A program made the translations under genes and the position numbers. A stretch of 45,042 nt of DNA from Alphaproteobacteria bacterium. Its GTDB lineage: Bacteria > Pseudomonadota > Alphaproteobacteria > Micropepsales > Micropepsaceae. Shown here one piece after another: positions 33,057-40,911 of the stretch. The stretch lies in NCBI GenBank assembly GCA_028865545.1, contig JAGWJY010000030.1:1-45042 (forward strand), given 5' to 3'. How positions within the stretch are numbered: the stretch's first letter is position 1; the number at the start of each line of letters is the position of its first letter. The notes beneath the pieces were generated by a model. It was not told where the DNA came from. It ran no database searches and saw nothing but the letters and a program-made list of their open reading frames with translations.

Positions 33057-33746
33057 TCAGCTCCAGTTCCACACAGCGCCGTCGCCGAGCTCTTTGCCGA
33101 CAAAGGCCGTGTGGGCTTCACGCTCGGCCGCCGTCAGCAGCGGCGGCAGCGGTGCGGGGCGTATCCGCGCCGGCCGGTTGTCGTCGACCGCAGTGGCGGC
33201 GGCATCGTCCGCTGGCGCCAGCAAAAGACGCTTCTGCCGGCCGCCGATCAGCTCCAGATAGACCTGCGCCGTCAGTTCGGCGTCGAGCAGCGCCCCATGC
33301 TTCTCGCGCGCCGACAGATCGATGCCGAACCGCTTGCACAACTCGTCAAGAGAATAGCGGACGCCGGGGAGCTTGTTCTTCGCCATTTCGATGGTGTCGA
33401 TGGCGCGGGCCGCCGGAATAGGTTTGCCGCCGATGCGGTCGAGCTCGGCGTTGACGAATTTCAAATCGAAACTGGCGTTGTGGATAACCAGCGGCGCATC
33501 GCCAATGAATTCTAGAAACGCTTCGGCGACTTCGGGGAAGCGCGGTTTGTCGGCGAGAAACGCGCCGGTGATGCCATGCACGCGCTCGGCTTCCACCGGC
33601 ATGTCGCGATCGGGATTGAGATAGCACTGATAAGTCTTGCCCGTCGGAAAATGGTCCAGCAGCTCGACGCAACCGATTTCGACGATGCGATGGCCGTCGG
33701 AGGGATCGAACCCGGTGGTTTCGGTGTCGAGCACGATCTCACGCAT
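33057..33746 (-). CDS. dnaQ: DNA polymerase III epsilon subunit (3'-5' proofreading exonuclease)
   Basis: The 229-residue protein has the DEDDh exonuclease motifs: Exo I LDTETTGFDP, Exo II VIHNASFDLKF and Exo III EKHGALLDAELTAQVYLEL with the catalytic His and Asp. The C-terminus (HTAFVGKELGDGAVWNW) is the usual end of alphaproteobacterial DnaQ and follows the clamp-binding region. It is the last gene of the ppsR-maf-aroE-coaE-dnaQ operon, one base from coaE. Confidence 0.97.
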   Translation of the reverse strand: MREIVLDTETTGFDPSDGHRIVEIGCVELLDHFPTGKTYQCYLNPDRDMPVEAERVHGITGAFLADKPRFPEVAEAFLEFIGDAPLVIHNASFDLKFVNAELDRIGGKPIPAARAIDTIEMAKNKLPGVRYSLDELCKRFGIDLSAREKHGALLDAELTAQVYLELIGGRQKRLLLAPADDAAATAVDDNRPARIRPAPLPPLLTAAEREAHTAFVGKELGDGAVWNWS

Positions 33747-33747
33747 G

Positions 33748-34368
33748 TTATTTCATCTCCGCGCGGCGCGCCTTCAATTCCGCCACGATCTTCTTGACTT
33801 GCGCAAAAGCGTGGTCGAGGCCTTCACCGGTTTCAACCACAAAATGCGCTTTTGCACGCTTTTCGGCGTCAGGCATCTGCCGCGCGAGGATGTGATCCAA
33901 CTTATCCGCCGTCATGCCCTCTCGCGACAGGACCCGCTCGCGTTGAACGTCCTGCGGAGCGGAGACCACCACAACAGCATCCATACGGACGTCGCCTCCG
34001 GTCTCGAACAGGAGAGGAATGTCCAGAACGACGAGGTCCATACCATCGGCATGTGCCTGTTCGACGAAGGCGCGTTGGGCCGTCGCCACCAACGGATGCA
34101 CAATCGCCTCGAGTCTGGCGAAGGCGGCGCTGTTGCCGCCAACCTGGCGCGCCAAGGCGTCCCGGTCGACACGACCATCCGTTACCGCACCAGGAAAAGC
34201 CACGGCGATTTTGGCAACGGCACCCCCACCTGCTTCGTACAAGGCGTGCACAGCAGCATCGGCGTCGTAGACCGGTACACCGAGCCTGGCGAACATCTTC
34301 GCCGTTTCGCTTTTGCCCATGCCGATCGAGCCGGTGAGGCCAATCAGGAACGGGCGGTCAGCGGCCAT
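33748..34368 (-). CDS. coaE: Dephospho-CoA kinase
   Basis: The 206-residue P-loop kinase makes the last step of coenzyme A synthesis. It shows the P-loop [51 protein letters not shown] and [19 protein letters not shown]. The ATG at 34368 matches the conserved N-terminus and overlaps the aroE 3' end by 11 bases; the frame extending to 34440 is a shadow of aroE. Confidence 0.97.
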
Positions 34369-35221
34369 GTTCCAGGGCCTCTTCCAACATGCTTCGGAGA
34401 GCGGCGGTGACTTCCGGCACGACGCCGTAGAAGGCCGCAAAGGCCTGCACCGCTTGATGCATCAGCATACCAAGGCCGTCGACCGTGTTGAGCCCGCGGG
34501 CCCTGGCCCGCGCCAAAAGCCCGGTTTCGAGCGGGCTGTAGACACCATCGACGACTGTCACGTCCTTTGGCAGCACATCGAGCGGCAGATCGAGCGAAGG
34601 CGTCGCGTTCATCCCAGCGCTGGTAGCGTGGACAAGCAGCCCGACATCCTTCCCGACGCTGGCCCAGTCATCGAACCCCATGACCACAAGTCTCGCTTTG
34701 ATCTTGGGCGCCACGGATGCCGCCAAGCTGCGCGCGCGCCCTACATTGCGGTTCAGGATGTAAATCTCGCTCACGCCAAGGTCGGACAGCGCACAGCACG
34801 CGGCGCGCGCCATGCCGCCGGCGCCCCAGATCGCCGCATTCCGGCCCTTGAGGTTGTTCGTCTCCATGCCCTCGCGCAGACTTGCGCTCAATCCCGCGGG
34901 ATCGGTGTTGCGCGCCTCGATGCCGTTTTCACCAAATAGAAGAAGATTCGCCGCGCCAGCGATTTCGGCCGCATGGTCGCAACGATCCGCGAGCGCAAAG
35001 GCGGCCTCTTTGTGGGGAATAGTGACGTTGACACCCTTGAATCCGGCCAGACGCAGCCCGTTCACGGCCTTAGCGAAATCCTCCTTGCGGATGGCAAGCG
35101 GCACATAGGCAGCATCGAGACTGTATTCGCGGATCCAATAGCCATGCAGCCGCGGCGACAGCGAGTGGGAGATGGGCCAGCCCACGACACCGGCAAGTTT
35201 CGCGGCTCCCGTGATATTCAT
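34358..35221 (-). CDS. aroE: Shikimate dehydrogenase
   Basis: The 287-residue NADP-dependent enzyme reduces dehydroshikimate in aromatic amino acid synthesis. It has the substrate-binding [17 protein letters not shown], the catalytic [11 protein letters not shown] with its Lys, the Rossmann [15 protein letters not shown] and the C-terminal [17 protein letters not shown]. Its start overlaps maf by 4 bases. Confidence 0.97.
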
Positions 35222-35814
35222 TTCTCAATGACCCCATGCTCGCGCAGCGCAGCCAGTAGCGGTATCAGCGGCAGGCCGAGCACTGCAAAATAGTCGCCTT
35301 GGACCTGTTCGAAAAGCTGCGCACCGCGACCTTCGAGATGATAGCAGCCGACGCTGCTCAGGATCGCCTCGCCTTCGGCCGACAGATAATCCTCGAGAAA
35401 TTTGTCGCCAAACGGCCGCATTCGCAAGGCGGCCTCTTCGCGCCGACGCCAGATCACCGATCCGCCCTTGGCCAAGACACAGGATGTGACGAGGACATGC
35501 TGTTTGCCGCGCAACCGCTGCAGCAAGGCGCGCGCCTCGATCAAATTCGGCGATTTGTCGACCACCTTGCCTTCGAATACGAGAACCTGATCGCAGCCCA
35601 GAACGAGTGTCTGCGGATGCTTCGTAGAGACGCGAACCGCTTTGAGTTCCGCCAATGCGTCAGCGATGGCGGCAGGCCCAGCCCCTTCGGCCAGCAGCGA
35701 TGTTTTGATCTCATCTTCATCGACACCGGCCGGACGCACTTCGAAAGGCACGCCAGCCTCACGAAGCAGGCGGGCGCGCACGGCGCTGGCAGAAGCCAAG
35801 ACCAATATGGTCAT
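35218..35814 (-). CDS. Maf/HAM1-type nucleotide pyrophosphatase
   Basis: The 198-residue protein has the Maf signature LASASAVRARLLREAGVPFE, the catalytic LGCDQVLVFEG, and VSSVGCYHLEGRGAQLFEQV-type C-terminal residues. The family hydrolyses modified or canonical nucleoside triphosphates in house cleaning. Its sequence groups with the second alphaproteobacterial Maf beside aroE. It overlaps ppsR and aroE by 4 bases each. Confidence 0.93.
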   Translation of the reverse strand: MTILVLASASAVRARLLREAGVPFEVRPAGVDEDEIKTSLLAEGAGPAAIADALAELKAVRVSTKHPQTLVLGCDQVLVFEGKVVDKSPNLIEARALLQRLRGKQHVLVTSCVLAKGGSVIWRRREEAALRMRPFGDKFLEDYLSAEGEAILSSVGCYHLEGRGAQLFEQVQGDYFAVLGLPLIPLLAALREHGVIEK

Positions 35815-36632
35815 GCCGGTGTGCCCCGGCGGTCGGCCATGTAATTCAGGATTGTGGCGGCTGTCTCCTCGACCGAGCGCCGGGTCACGTCGATCGACGG
35901 CCACCCTTGTTGCTCGTAGAGGCGTCTTGTCGTCATGACTTCGGCGCGAACTTTCTCGAGATCCACGTAATCGGTCACCATTTGCTCGCCGATGGTTGCT
36001 AGACGATTGCGCCGAATTTGGACGAGACGTTCCGGCGAGGCCCACAAACCAACGATGAGAGGCTTGGTATAGGCCAGCAATTGGGCCGGTGCCGGCATAC
36101 CGAGAACGAGAGGCACATTTGCGGCGCGCACGCCCCGCATCGCGAGATATACACAGGTCGGGGTCTTGGACGTGCGGCTGGCGCCCACCAGGATCGTGTC
36201 AGCGCCGCCGAGATCGTCAAGTGCCTGACCGTCGTCATGTTGGATCGTAAAGTTCAGTGCTTCGATACGCTGCAGATAGCGTTGGTCGACTTCGTGTTGT
36301 CCACCTGGCCTGTGCGTCTTTGGCGCGCCGAAGAAGCGCTGCATCAGACTGACCGGTCCTTCCATAAGGTCAAAGAACGGTGCGCTGATCAGCGTGCATT
36401 GGGCAACGAGCTCATTGCGCAGTTCCAGGTTCACGACTGTGAACAGTACCAAGCCGGGATGTTCGCGAATATAATCAACCGCTCGCAACAGCTGTCGTTC
36501 GCTGCGTACCAATGTGTAGGAGTGCTCCTGAACGATCACGCCTTCAAATTGGGCAAGCGCCGCTTTCGCAACGGCGTGTAGGGTCTCGCCCGTCGCATCC
36601 GAGATAAGATGGAGATGGAATTGCTCACTCAC
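35811..36632 (-). CDS. ppsR: Pyruvate, phosphate dikinase regulatory protein (bifunctional kinase/phosphorylase)
   Basis: The 273-residue DUF299 protein controls PPDK or PEP synthase by ADP-dependent phosphorylation and phosphate-dependent dephosphorylation. Visible are HLHLISDATGETLHAVAKAA, the P-loop VGASRTSKTPTCVYLAMRG and the C-terminal VTRRSVEETAATIL. It is the first gene of the leftward operon, transcribed away from the candidate origin. In alphaproteobacteria this gene is a frequent left neighbour of hemE. Confidence 0.95.
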   Translation of the reverse strand: MSEQFHLHLISDATGETLHAVAKAALAQFEGVIVQEHSYTLVRSERQLLRAVDYIREHPGLVLFTVVNLELRNELVAQCTLISAPFFDLMEGPVSLMQRFFGAPKTHRPGGQHEVDQRYLQRIEALNFTIQHDDGQALDDLGGADTILVGASRTSKTPTCVYLAMRGVRAANVPLVLGMPAPAQLLAYTKPLIVGLWASPERLVQIRRNRLATIGEQMVTDYVDLEKVRAEVMTTRRLYEQQGWPSIDVTRRSVEETAATILNYMADRRGTPA

Positions 36633-36886
36633 AGTTTTGCTCCTGATCCATCCACGTCATGCCTTCGACTATGCGCATAACTTGAACGGCCAACCAAGGT
36701 CGGTGCGTCTATGGGCGTAGAATCTCATGACCCGTCCTAACCCCGCACAACCACCCCTGTTACCCACATTTTCCGAAGCTCTTGAGTCTATTAATATTCC
36801 AGCCTACAGGAAGCCTGCGCCCACCGACCTCTCCACAATTCACAGGCCATACATCATCTTCAGAATCCTTTACTAGGAGTCTTGTT
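36633..36886. other. Candidate chromosome replication origin (oriC)
   Basis: This 254-bp gap separates leftward ppsR from rightward hemE. It contains TTACCCACA (36760-36768) and TGCGCATAA (36672-36680), each one mismatch from the DnaA box on either strand, plus weaker TGATCCATC (36644) and CTCTCCACA (36829). Four GANTC (CcrM-type) sites lie at 36720, 36784, 36863 and 36877. A short AT-rich tract (TCTATTAATATT, 36787-36798) could serve for unwinding. Composition falls to about 50% GC nearby. Position next to hemE and the divergence of gene direction match the Caulobacter origin. No full CtrA site was found. Promoters for both flanking genes must also lie here. Confidence 0.55.
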
Positions 36887-37921
36887 TTGGAGAAGAGAAA
36901 GAAGTTACTCGAAGCGCTCGAACGAAAAGTTGTCGTGCCGCCTCCGCTTTGGATGATGCGCCAAGCGGGCCGCTACCTTCCAGAATATCGGGAAACGAGA
37001 GCCAAGGCTGGATCTTTCTGGAAGATGTGTATGTCGCCGGAACTGGCGGCGGAAGTAACGGTACAGCCTATCGAGCGTTTTGGTTTTGATGCCGCAATCA
37101 TCTTCTCCGATATTCTGGTCGTGCCTGCGGCATTAGGTCTGCCGGTGGTGTTTGAAGAAGGTGTCGGACCTAGGCTCCCGGCGATCACTTCGGTGAGTGG
37201 TCTGCAACGAGATCAAGCCAAATGGTCACAGGCGCTTGAGCCTGTTTACGAGGCGTTGCATCTCGTTCGAGCCGAGCTGCCGACTTCAACAACCTTGCTT
37301 GGCTTCGCAGGCGCGCCATGGACCTTGGCGACATATCTGGCCGCAGGACGGGGTGGCGACGAACAGAAGGCCGCGAAGCTTTGGGCGTATCGCGATCCTA
37401 TCGGGTTCAAGGAGCTTGTGGATGTTCTGGTCGAATGTATCTCTCGACATCTCGTGGCACAGCTGAGAGCAGGCGCTGATGCCGTTCAGATCTTCGATAG
37501 CTGGGCATCCGGTTTGCCGCGGACGGCGTTTGTACCGTGGGTGGTTGAGCCCACCAAGGAGATCGTCGCCAGGGTTCGCGCTGAAATTCCCGGGGCCCGG
37601 ATTATCGGATTCCCAAGGGCGGCCACGCTCGATGGCTATGAACTCTACGCCAAGGAGACGGGTGTAGATGCGCTCTCGCTTGATACAGCCGTAGCAATGG
37701 AGCGGGCTGCCAGCACGCTGGGATCTCGCGTCGCGCTGCAAGGCAACCTTGACCCGATTGCTCTTATCGCGGGAGGCCGTGCTCTGGCTGAGGGTGTGGA
37801 CAATATCCTGGAAGCGACGCGTGGCGTTCCGTTCATTTTCAACCTGGGGCACGGCATCCTGCCTGAAACGCCCATCGCGCATGTCGAAGAGCTTGTTCGT
37901 CTGGTGCGGAGTGCGCGGTGA
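36887..37921 (+). CDS. hemE: Uroporphyrinogen decarboxylase
   Basis: The 344-residue enzyme converts uroporphyrinogen III to coproporphyrinogen III in heme synthesis. The family motif PPLWMMRQAGRYLPEYRETR is near the N-terminus, with FSDILVVPAALGL, GFAGAPWTLATYL, IFDSWASGLP, LQGNLDP and FNLGHGILPETP further on. The start is a TTG (36887-36889) because AGGAG (36875-36879) lies 7 bases before it and the protein would then begin MEKRKKLLEALER; upstream sequence in frame looks non-coding. Base composition (about 50-57% GC in sampled segments) is clearly below that of hemH and rho (about 70% in sampled segments). It overlaps hemH by GTGA. Confidence 0.96.
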   Translation: MEKRKKLLEALERKVVVPPPLWMMRQAGRYLPEYRETRAKAGSFWKMCMSPELAAEVTVQPIERFGFDAAIIFSDILVVPAALGLPVVFEEGVGPRLPAITSVSGLQRDQAKWSQALEPVYEALHLVRAELPTSTTLLGFAGAPWTLATYLAAGRGGDEQKAAKLWAYRDPIGFKELVDVLVECISRHLVAQLRAGADAVQIFDSWASGLPRTAFVPWVVEPTKEIVARVRAEIPGARIIGFPRAATLDGYELYAKETGVDALSLDTAVAMERAASTLGSRVALQGNLDPIALIAGGRALAEGVDNILEATRGVPFIFNLGHGILPETPIAHVEELVRLVRSAR

Positions 37922-38943
37922 AGCTTGCCATCGTTTTGTTCAATCTTGGCGGACCGGATTCTCCGGACGCGGTTGAGCCGTTCCTGCGCAATCTGTTCAG
38001 CGATCCGGCGATCCTAACGCTACCGTCCTTCATTCGCATACCGCTCGCAAAGTTCATTGCCGGGCGCCGGGCGCCGGTGGCGCGCGACATCTACGCCAAG
38101 ATCGGGGGAAGCTCGCCGATTCTGGAGGAAACGGAGGCGCAGGCCCGCGCCCTGGAGTCTGTGTTGTCGGCACACGAGACGCGTGCCTTTATCGCCATGC
38201 GATGCTGGAAACCGTTCAGCGATGACGCAGCCCGCGAAATCGCGGCCTGGTCCCCGGATCACATCATGCTCCTGCCGCTTTATCCGCAGTTTTCCACGAC
38301 CACCACGGGGTCGTCACTGGCGGACTGGAACAGGGCGTCCAAGGCCGCTGGCATCGTGGCACCACAATCGCGTGTGTGCTGTTATCCGCGCGCGCCGGGA
38401 TTTATCGAGGCGTTGGCCGCCTTGACGCGCGAGATGATGTCCAAGACGCGGCCGGATATTTCCTACCGTGTGCTGCTGTCGGCGCACGGTTTGCCGCAGC
38501 GTGTGATCGCCAAAGGCGACCCCTATCAGTGGCAGGTCGAACAATCGGCGGCGGCCCTTGTGGAACGTTTGGGGGTAACCGACTGGACGGTCTGTTATCA
38601 GAGCAGGGTCGGACCGCTGAAATGGATCGGGCCGTCGACCGATGCCGAAATCCGTCGGGCTGGCGCCGACGGCAAAGGGGTGATCGTGGTGCCGATGGCG
38701 TTTGTTTCGGAGCACTCCGAGACATTGGTCGAACTTGACATGGAATATGCAAAACTGGCGGGCGAGGCCGGGGTTCGCGATTATCTGCGGGTGCCGACGG
38801 TAAGCGCACATCCGGCGTTCATTGACGGGCTCGCGGAATTGGTGCTGCGGAGTCTTTCGCAGGCGGAACCGGTGACTTATGAGGGCGGCCGGATTTGCCC
38901 CGCCGAATGCGGGGCCTGTGGCTATTCGCAGGGGACGAGATGA
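37918..38943 (+). CDS. hemH: Ferrochelatase
   Basis: The 341-residue enzyme inserts iron into protoporphyrin. It has VLFNLGGPDSPDAVEPFL, the catalytic LLSAHGLPQRVI His motif, CYQSRVGPLKWIGPSTD and PMAFVSEHSETLVELD with the second conserved His. The C-terminus has C327-X3-C331-X2-C334, consistent with the 2Fe-2S cluster known from some bacterial ferrochelatases, including Caulobacter. It starts at a GTG overlapping the hemE stop and its own stop overlaps hemJ (ATGA). Confidence 0.96.
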   Translation: MKLAIVLFNLGGPDSPDAVEPFLRNLFSDPAILTLPSFIRIPLAKFIAGRRAPVARDIYAKIGGSSPILEETEAQARALESVLSAHETRAFIAMRCWKPFSDDAAREIAAWSPDHIMLLPLYPQFSTTTTGSSLADWNRASKAAGIVAPQSRVCCYPRAPGFIEALAALTREMMSKTRPDISYRVLLSAHGLPQRVIAKGDPYQWQVEQSAAALVERLGVTDWTVCYQSRVGPLKWIGPSTDAEIRRAGADGKGVIVVPMAFVSEHSETLVELDMEYAKLAGEAGVRDYLRVPTVSAHPAFIDGLAELVLRSLSQAEPVTYEGGRICPAECGACGYSQGTR

Positions 38944-39386
38944 AAGAATTTCTCATCGACAATTATCTGGTCATCAAGGCGCTGCATGTGATCGCGGTAA
39001 TCGCCTGGATGAGCGGCATGTTCTATCTGCCGAGATTGTTCGTCTATCACACCGAAACCACACCGGGGGCGGCCGACTATCAGCGGTTCGTGACCATGGA
39101 GCGCAAGCTTCTGAAGATCATCATGAACCCGGCGATGATCACAGTGTGGGTGCTGGGCCTGACAATGGCCTGGCTGATGGACTACTGGCCGCTCCACTGG
39201 TTTCAGGCAAAGCTGGCGCTGGTTGCGGCAATGACCTGGACGCACCACTCCTACGCGATCTGGGCCAAGGACTTCGCACGGGAACGTAACGTCCGGACGG
39301 CGCGCTTTTTCCGGATTTGGAACGAGGTTCCCACCTTGTTGATGATGGGGATTGTCATCCTTGTGGTCATTAAGCCGGCATTTTAG
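38940..39386 (+). CDS. hemJ: Protoporphyrinogen oxidase HemJ
   Basis: The 148-residue four-helix membrane protein oxidises protoporphyrinogen IX and is the usual form in alphaproteobacteria that lack HemG and HemY. It has the conserved KALHVIAVIAWMSGMFYLPRLFVYH with the His residues that bind heme, KLLKIIMNPAM and WNEVPTLLMMGIVILVVIKP. Start overlaps hemH (ATGA), so hemE-hemH-hemJ are read as one coupled unit, giving three late heme steps together. Confidence 0.96.
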   Translation: MKEFLIDNYLVIKALHVIAVIAWMSGMFYLPRLFVYHTETTPGAADYQRFVTMERKLLKIIMNPAMITVWVLGLTMAWLMDYWPLHWFQAKLALVAAMTWTHHSYAIWAKDFARERNVRTARFFRIWNEVPTLLMMGIVILVVIKPAF

Positions 39387-39417
39387 CCGCCGGAGAGCGA
39401 AAATCGGCGACGGGCCG

Positions 39418-39446
39418 TTTGCAACGCCGCCAAATCGCGGTATAAA
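39418..39446 (+). promoter_or_regulatory. Candidate sigma-70 promoter of rho
   Basis: TTTGCA (39418-39423), a 17-bp spacer and TATAAA (39441-39446) form a good -35/-10 pair. Transcription would start near 39453, giving a rho leader of about 175 bases. Such leaders are where Rho often attenuates its own synthesis, so autoregulation is plausible. Confidence 0.45.
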
Positions 39447-39627
39447 GCAGGAAGTTCCCCATTGAAGCTCGTAGCGGTACGCGCCGGTCAAGCGCGAAGG
39501 CCAAGAATGGCCGCAGACGCGGCGGGCGGACCGATCTATCTCCACCAATGAACTCGCAAGGCCATGCATTAAGGCGGGGCTTGCGGGCAGCGGACCATCA
39601 CAAGCGTTTGTTTCAGGTGTATCTCCC

Positions 39628-40911
39628 ATGACAGTGCAATCCGGCCTGCAGGCCATGAAGCTGCAGGATCTCAAGTCCAAAACCCCCACCGATCTTCTCG
39701 CCTTCGCCGAAGAACTGGAGATCGAGAACGCCTCGTCCATGCGCAAGCAGGACATGATGTTCGCGATCCTCAAGGAGCTCGCCGATCGCAATGTCGAGAT
39801 CACCGGCATGGGCGTCCTCGAAACCTTGCAGGATGGCTTTGGCTTCCTGCGCTCGCCGGAATCCAACTATCTGGCCGGACCGGACGACATCTACGTGTCG
39901 CCTTCGCAGATCCGCCGCTTCGGGCTGCGCACCGGCGATACGGTGGAAGGCCCGATCCGGTCGCCCAAGGACGGCGAGCGTTATTTCGCACTGCTGAAGG
40001 TGTCGACGATCAATTTCGAAGACCCGGAAAAGATCAAGCACAAGGTCCATTTCGACAATCTGACGCCGCTCTATCCGACGCGCTGGCTCAGCATGGAGCT
40101 CAACGATCCGACGCTGAAGGACAAGACGGGACGGGTGATCGACATCGTCGCGCCCCAGGGCATGGGCCAGCGTGCGCTGATTACCGCGCAGCCGCGCACC
40201 GGCAAGACGGTCATCCTGCAGAACATCGCCCGCGCCATCTCAGCCAATCATCCCGAATGCTATCTGATCGTGCTGCTGATCGACGAGCGGCCGGAAGAAG
40301 TCACCGACATGCAGCGTTCGGTGAAGGGCGAGGTTATCTCCTCGACCTTCGACGAGCCGGCCAGCCGTCACGTCCAGGTCGCCGAGATGGTGATCGAGAA
40401 AGCCAAGCGGCTTGTGGAGCACAAGCGCGACGTGGTGATCCTGCTCGATTCCATCACCCGCCTCGGCCGCGCCTACAACACCGTCGTGCCCTCTTCGGGC
40501 AAGGTGCTGACCGGCGGCGTCGACGCCAACGCCCTGCAGCGGCCGAAGCGCTTCTTCGGCGCGGCGCGCAATATCGAGGAAGGTGGTTCGCTGACCATCA
40601 TCGCCACGGCGCTGATCGATACCGGCAGCCGCATGGACGAGGTTATCTTCGAAGAGTTCAAGGGGACCGGCAATTCGGAAATCATCCTGGACCGTAAGGT
40701 TGCCGACAAGCGCATCTTCCCGGCGATCGACATTCTCAAGTCCGGCACCCGCAAGGATGAGCTGCTGCTCGACAAATCCACCTTGGCAAAAACCTATGTG
40801 TTGCGCCGCATTTTGGCGCCGATGGGCACGGTGGATGCCATCGAGTTCCTGCTCGACAAGCTGCGTTCATCGAAGAACAACGCGGACTTCTTCGAGAGCA
40901 TGAATACCTAA
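39628..40911 (+). CDS. rho: Transcription termination factor Rho
   Basis: The 427-residue hexameric RNA helicase has the Rho N-terminal domain ([20 protein letters not shown]), the cold-shock-like RNA-binding domain ([20 protein letters not shown]), Walker [10 protein letters not shown], Walker [12 protein letters not shown], and the Q/R loops near [22 protein letters not shown]. The start at 39628 adds a short leader before the conserved MKLQDLK, which itself begins 10 codons later; either could be used. In many alphaproteobacteria rho follows hemJ near the origin. It is separated by only 2 bases from the convergent quinone oxidoreductase gene. Confidence 0.98.

Follow-up and report, generated by a model that had tools for sequence, protein, structure and literature searches.

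The closest described relatives of the locus discussed here are the chromosome origins of Caulobacter (Cori) and Rickettsia prowazekii. Both are bounded by hemE on one side and by COG1806, a DUF299 gene, on the other, and both exceed their genomes in A+T content, as described in PMC1914354. For Cori, the literature further describes several GANTC sites and a hemE promoter that matters for replication (PMC1914354, PMC8959179, PMC3973325). The putative origin of Neorickettsia sennetsu likewise lies on the hemE side and is described as having neither consensus DnaA nor consensus CtrA boxes, but COG1806 is located apart from hemE there (PMC1914354). A further comparison is offered by the DnaA-trio basal unwinding system (BUS) of Bacillus subtilis type, for which a published DnaA-trio search rule takes a box with up to two mismatches, a spacer of 0–16 and three or more.A. 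units; as stated in the same work, its authors suspect that deviant trio motifs exist, for example without the middle adenine (PMC8287927). In B. subtilis DnaA, Asn187 is reported to contact the trio adenine, while Ile190 and Ile193 flank the third base (PMC10721633). A literature search, mostly within papers available without subscription, brought up nothing on DnaA trinucleotide unwinding at an alphaproteobacterial oriC, and we make no claim of novelty.

The window analyzed here, a stretch of 45,042 nucleotides, is contig C92 of a 3.4-Mb genome in 101 contigs (G000), which has alphaproteobacterial MAGs as its named near relatives. Within it, a gap of 254 bp (36633–36886) separates ppsR (35811–36632, minus strand; PF03618, Kinase-PPPase, 286 bits; NF003742) from hemE (36887–37921, plus strand; PF01208, 354 bits; TIGR01464, 368 bits). 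The probable start codon of hemE is a TTG, judging from homologues and from the AGGAG ahead of it. We take PF03618 to be today's name for DUF299, the COG1806 of the literature. A preliminary description had proposed an origin in this gap on account of a split in gene direction, a dip in composition and the hemE-side position known from Caulobacter and Rickettsia, and all three observations hold. Pfam and NCBIfam assignments place ppsR, maf, aroE, coaE and dnaQ leftward (maf to dnaQ at 33057–36045, minus strand) and hemE, hemH, hemJ and rho rightward (hemH to rho at 37918–40911, plus strand; positions compared in relatives), and the gap has 49.6% A+T compared to 36.9% for the window. Beyond hemE, the second boundary gene matches the published layout as well (PMC1914354); the window thus keeps the ancestral pair that is separated in N. 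sennetsu. The positions of dnaQ and ppsR are maintained in relatives, ppsR being present in 47 of the 61 genomes searched, and gaps within the genus measure 205–310 bp.

The partitioning site parS also bears on the location. In all six relatives that carry both features on one contig, parS is found 6–16 kb from ppsR: the nearest exact site lies at 12.1 kb in G027, 14.6 kb in G028, 15.5 kb in G002 and 13.5 kb in G044, and the nearest inexact one at 14.7 kb in G049 (one mismatch) and 6.3 kb in G047 (two mismatches), to be read knowing that G028 has further two-mismatch matches elsewhere (contig C2), as does G044 (3.09 Mb), and that a control pattern matched in G044, too. The parS pair of the window's own genome is on contig C24, and the gene order of relatives, rho-ADH-orf-DUF255-mnmE-mnmG, suggests that this contig follows that of the window. 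In G027 one 16S gene was found, and it is oriented away from ppsR, which is what an origin at ppsR would predict. A search for a dif-like site gave none in the seven genomes searched, with the one pattern used.

Skew favors this location in a genome from one other family; within the genus it ranges from undecided to adverse. In G044, a one-contig genome from that other family, skew is positive in the stretches sampled from 0 to 1.5 Mb and negative in those from 1.7 to 3.55 Mb. Its local minimum within the 228 kb read closely is at 3,616,825, about 11 kb from a gap at approximately 3,605,160–3,605,840 that holds six DnaA boxes and adjoins the ppsR start at 3,605,837. In G047, ppsR lies at 2.21 Mb, and skew turns positive ahead of it, somewhere from 1.69 to 2.18 Mb; the 40 kb around the gene show no switch. 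The one-contig congener G027 shows a weak, scrambled raw skew with a local maximum near ppsR (40 evenly spaced 20-kb stretches), and much the same local maximum is seen in the raw cumulative GC skew of G028. When GC3 skew is corrected for gene direction, the best origin fit in G027 falls at 3.13 Mb, with 3.36 Mb nearly equal and ppsR at 3.52 Mb, a fit that is compatible with the gap and matched by 7 of 300 permutations; in G028, sampled on contig C1 alone (3.1 of about 4.7 Mb), the local maximum at ppsR persists. The correction carries little weight because it was applied after the raw skew had been seen and helps G027 but not G028. Coding-strand third-position skew is strongly negative in both congeners (−0.17 in G027, −0.10 in G028), and raw skew is weak in the genus.

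Taken together, the ppsR-hemE gap is very probably the chromosome origin (oriC) in its ancestral COG1806-hemE position, a prediction in which initiation itself is inferred from sequence. The location is well supported because boundary-gene layout, the nearby parS sites, and the boxes and skew switch of G044 all bear on it, most of this being evidence beyond that of the preliminary description. As an address for an origin it is ordinary; what is probably unusual is the wording.

This becomes apparent in the comparison with Cori and R. prowazekii. Unlike these, the gap spans only 254 bp and contains two DnaA boxes with one mismatch each, no box with zero mismatches and no CtrA site within one mismatch; the proposed scan of the gap for CtrA (TTAA-N7-TTAA) and IHF sites returned two-mismatch matches only, and in its paucity of consensus boxes the gap resembles the origin of N. 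sennetsu. The two boxes singled out at the outset, TTATGCGCA (36672–36680, minus strand) and TTACCCACA (36760–36768, plus strand), are present, but they do not stand as conserved features: identity to 28 relatives is 0.54 for the former and 0.23 for the latter, and 0.33 for the sequence between them (36681–36759). These and all other identity figures for parts of the gap refer to the 29 gaps, that of the window and those of the 28 relatives, in which the gap precedes hemE. When the gap was shuffled 2000 times with dinucleotides kept, 1.8% of the shuffles had two or more boxes. Across the window, boxes with up to one mismatch occur at chance (9 found, 9.3 expected), and genome-wide 620 were counted compared to 827 for a reversed-pattern control. 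In a set of 41 distinct genus gaps, with identical gaps counted once and L026 (a short contig with no hem gene after the gap) left out, 22 boxes were found versus 6.2 expected (sd 2.4). Gaps of other families are far richer. In G045 and G054 hemE lies outside the stretch and 450 nt were used; both belong to the set of ten other-family gaps scored for tracts, and only G054 to the set of nine used here. The mean number of boxes is 0.5 in 48 genus gaps versus 4.1 in the nine, for mean lengths of 267 and 475 bp, and three or more boxes are found in none of the 48 but in seven of the nine; the window gap, too, is devoid of a DnaA-box cluster.

The second element highlighted in the preliminary description, a crowding of GANTC sites, is borne out. 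Four exact sites begin at 36720, 36784, 36863 and 36877, within 162 bp; four or more occur in only 0.8% of 2000 dinucleotide shuffles, and the cluster stands out all the more because the motif is underrepresented in the window (82 copies for an expected 209), a depletion that has been reported for alphaproteobacterial genomes (PMC3973325). Over the 41 distinct genus gaps there are 117 sites for an expected 42.3 (sd 5.6), and the last 70 bp contain at least one in 47 of 48 genus gaps versus three of nine gaps from other families. The site at 36720–36724 (GAATC) is in the weakly conserved part of the gap. The suggested control by CcrM-type methylation is only half borne out: the genome does encode a RAMA-domain protein (CcrM-type) and GcrA, in line with the enrichment, but two of the four sites fall into promoter- or RBS-like elements of hemE. 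Moreover, Caulobacter cells without CcrM are reported to have a normal DNA content profile, and CcrM was found dispensable for initiation control there (PMC3973325). For this reason we read the sites first as control of the hem promoter and second as control of the origin.

What is conserved in the gap is its hemE-proximal core, rather than the two boxes described initially. It starts with CTTGAGTC (36781–36788, plus strand; identity 0.85), which contains the GANTC at 36784–36788 and resembles a −35 element of a putative hemE promoter, with GCCTACAG (36802–36809, plus strand) as the −10-like counterpart. A sigma-70 scan listed one match, inside the core at 36839–36866 (9 of 12), and did not list the proposed −35-like element. 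Further downstream comes a weak pair of DnaA-box-like sequences, CTCTCCACA and CAATTCACA followed by a G (36829–36845, plus strand; two mismatches each, identity 0.76); the core sequence TCCACANNTCACAG occurs once in the genome. A short spacer (36846–36852, plus strand) leads to a period-3 tract of the (CAN) type, ATCATCTTCAGAATCCTT (36853–36870, plus strand; identity 0.77), the candidate DnaA-trio unwinding tract, inside which lies an exact GANTC (GAATC, 36863–36867). The gap ends with TACTAGGAGTCTTGTT (36871–36886, plus strand; identity 0.71), where an RBS-like AGGAG overlaps the GANTC at 36877–36881.

Not all members of the genus have hemE in its usual place. It does not adjoin ppsR in 13 of 48 gaps, namely 12 among the 41 distinct ones (L010, L011, L012, L013, L024, L030, L042, L044, L046, L047, L049 and L050) and that of G009, and a similar core, with promoter-like element and leader retained, then precedes hemH. 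Just ahead of hemH in L011, L013 and L042, an inverted repeat AGAATCTTAGAATCTAAGATTCT with three GANTC sites replaces the AGGAGTC gap end.

With a weak box pair separated by 8 (or 15) bp from a trinucleotide tract, the core is reminiscent of the B. subtilis-type BUS, and the window sequence, read by hand, fits the published rule with three trios (PMC8287927). Genus-wide, however, the middle-adenine rule has no strand specificity (NTN runs of 4.71 on one strand and 4.77 on the other), and trios of the GAT/AAT kind (YTA triplets) are not enriched in the 48 gaps (1.50 versus 1.38 in shuffles, highest shuffle mean 1.54). A different pattern emerges with CAN and CNA triplets, both picked after inspection of the sequences and counted, for the genus, in 48 non-independent gaps from related genomes. 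At least four of six triplets are CAN in 26 of these gaps, where 5.4 would be expected, and the mean best CAN run is 3.62 versus 2.83 in shuffles. In ten gaps from other families it is the best CNA run that is raised, to 3.90 of 6 versus 2.62. Comparing the two patterns gap by gap, CAN scores higher than CNA in 26 genus gaps, lower in none and equal in 22; in the other families it is higher in none, lower in five and equal in five. The separation is not absolute: CAN slightly exceeds its shuffles in the other families as well (3.30 versus 2.78, level with the highest shuffle mean), as does CNA in the genus (2.79 versus 2.53, highest shuffle mean 2.77). Column counts over 46 of the 48 genus tracts (L007 was too short and L014 scored too low, while L012 is included despite a misplaced anchor) show near-invariant C and A steps and a freer third base. 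By eye, a C/A-rich period-3 tract can be recognized in G037, G042, G050, G051, G053, G044 and G054, where it follows a site of the TCCAC or TCCCC type and precedes an A+T-rich stretch. The scored best CNA run falls at this place in G037, G042, G050, G051 and G053, and in G049 as well, but not in G044 and G054.

Could the conserved part be something other than an origin? The most serious alternative holds that it is just the promoter and 5' leader of hemE and hemH, perhaps regulated by GcrA/CcrM, with the origin elsewhere or in the non-conserved half of the gap. The period-3 tract could then be an mRNA leader. This accords with the presence of CTTGANTC in 31 of 48 genus gaps and of a GANTC in the last 30 bp of 40 of them, with a leader that is retained ahead of hemH where hemE is missing, the expected result if hemE had simply been deleted, and with a genus skew that lends the gap no support as origin, either raw (G027, G028) or corrected (G028). 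Yet in several other families comparable box-like sites, together with a period-3 tract and A+T-rich sequence, can be made out by eye, and their distance to the extrapolated start of hemE varies between tens of bases and roughly 250 (G050); moreover, the core is unique in the genome and gave no match in an Rfam search of 36400–37100. We consider this alternative unlikely, though by no means negligible.

Two further proposals would move the origin away from hemE altogether. One places it beside parB in the genus, in a box-bearing parB-hisA gap, since exact or near boxes follow directly on the parB stop in G000 (C24:5994; L130, 5961–6009), G027, G028, G002 and G010. That gap is merely 8–70 bp long in the 12 genomes measured (parB of G007 lies outside the stretch), however, and boxes are missing in several others: G013, G022 and G020 have none in the region that reaches from 250 bp upstream to 200 bp downstream of the parB stop, and G014, G015, G021, G025 and G030 have none past the stop. 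We rejected it on these grounds as highly improbable. The other, an origin beside dnaA as in many bacteria, has in its favor that the deposited sequences of G044 and G047 begin at dnaA, but we regard it as barely credible and rejected it as well: in the six genomes with both genes on one contig (G027, G028, G044, G047, G049 and G050), the distance between dnaA and ppsR on the circular map is 135 kb to 2.0 Mb; in G044, where dnaA is 135 kb from the ppsR-hemE gap, skew switches near ppsR and not near dnaA; and the 12 kb surrounding dnaA in G027 are free of boxes with up to one mismatch.

With the ppsR-hemE gap as the favored origin, the initiator itself deserves attention, as the AAA+ (single-strand-binding) domain of DnaA has strongly diverged in the genus. 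The PF00308 score is 126–146 bits in all ten congeners tested, 231–242 in nine other families and 181 in G047. Identity of the AAA+ domain is 0.40 between the genus and the others compared to 0.77 among the others, and 0.33 (genus) compared to 0.51 (others) relative to B. subtilis. Domain IV diverged as well, with 0.58 versus 0.73 in the first comparison and 0.45 versus 0.49 in the second, while the box-binding motif GGRDHTTV is intact in all ten congeners. At the B. subtilis positions 187/190/193/202/222/228/264, all ten read RLLKSER, whereas the nine other families read Y-[IV]-[LIM]-KKER and G047 reads FVVKKER. Residue 187 is accordingly Arg in the genus and Tyr in the nine other families, and there are 32 fixed changes in total, including 187 Tyr to Arg and 222 Lys to Ser. 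By analogy to the trio contact of Asn187 in B. subtilis, Arg at this position may read a different base.

How might such an origin work? DnaA would bind the weak box pair at 36829–36845 and then spread on one strand of the adjoining trinucleotide tract (36853–36870), upon which the end beside hemE is predicted to melt; transcription of hemE would begin upstream and cross the core. That the tract acts as a DnaA unwinding element in this way is a proposition we place just short of even. The genus origin would then be small, without the box cluster common to most other families examined, and equipped with a (CAN)-type tract. Compared to the B. subtilis BUS, the units on its trio strand are 3'-GTN-5' instead of 3'-GAT-5', and they would meet an Arg instead of Asn or Tyr at residue 187. 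Only tentatively do we suggest a joint change of the tract and the DnaA pocket. Spelled out in full, the genus may have rewritten the single-strand code of its origin from 3'-GNT-5' trios, which include GAT, to 3'-GTN-5', with the AAA+ domain changing in step, GGRDHTTV kept and the box cluster lost, a scenario that we hold to be rather doubtful. It is weakened because the fixed changes in DnaA number 32 and extend well beyond residue 187, and because domain IV diverged, too. If true, a conserved non-GAT tract paired with a different single-strand pocket would let nature itself test the way in which DnaA reads single-stranded DNA. It could also be the reason that some origins are overlooked by finders based on box clusters or GAT trios.

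A last observation concerns DnaA boxes elsewhere in the genome. Two of them, one exact (TTATCCACA), are located at G000:C55:58729–58812 (L138), a few hundred bases upstream of gcrA (C55:57979–58401, minus strand). DnaA controls gcrA in Caulobacter, and these upstream boxes fit such a control here.
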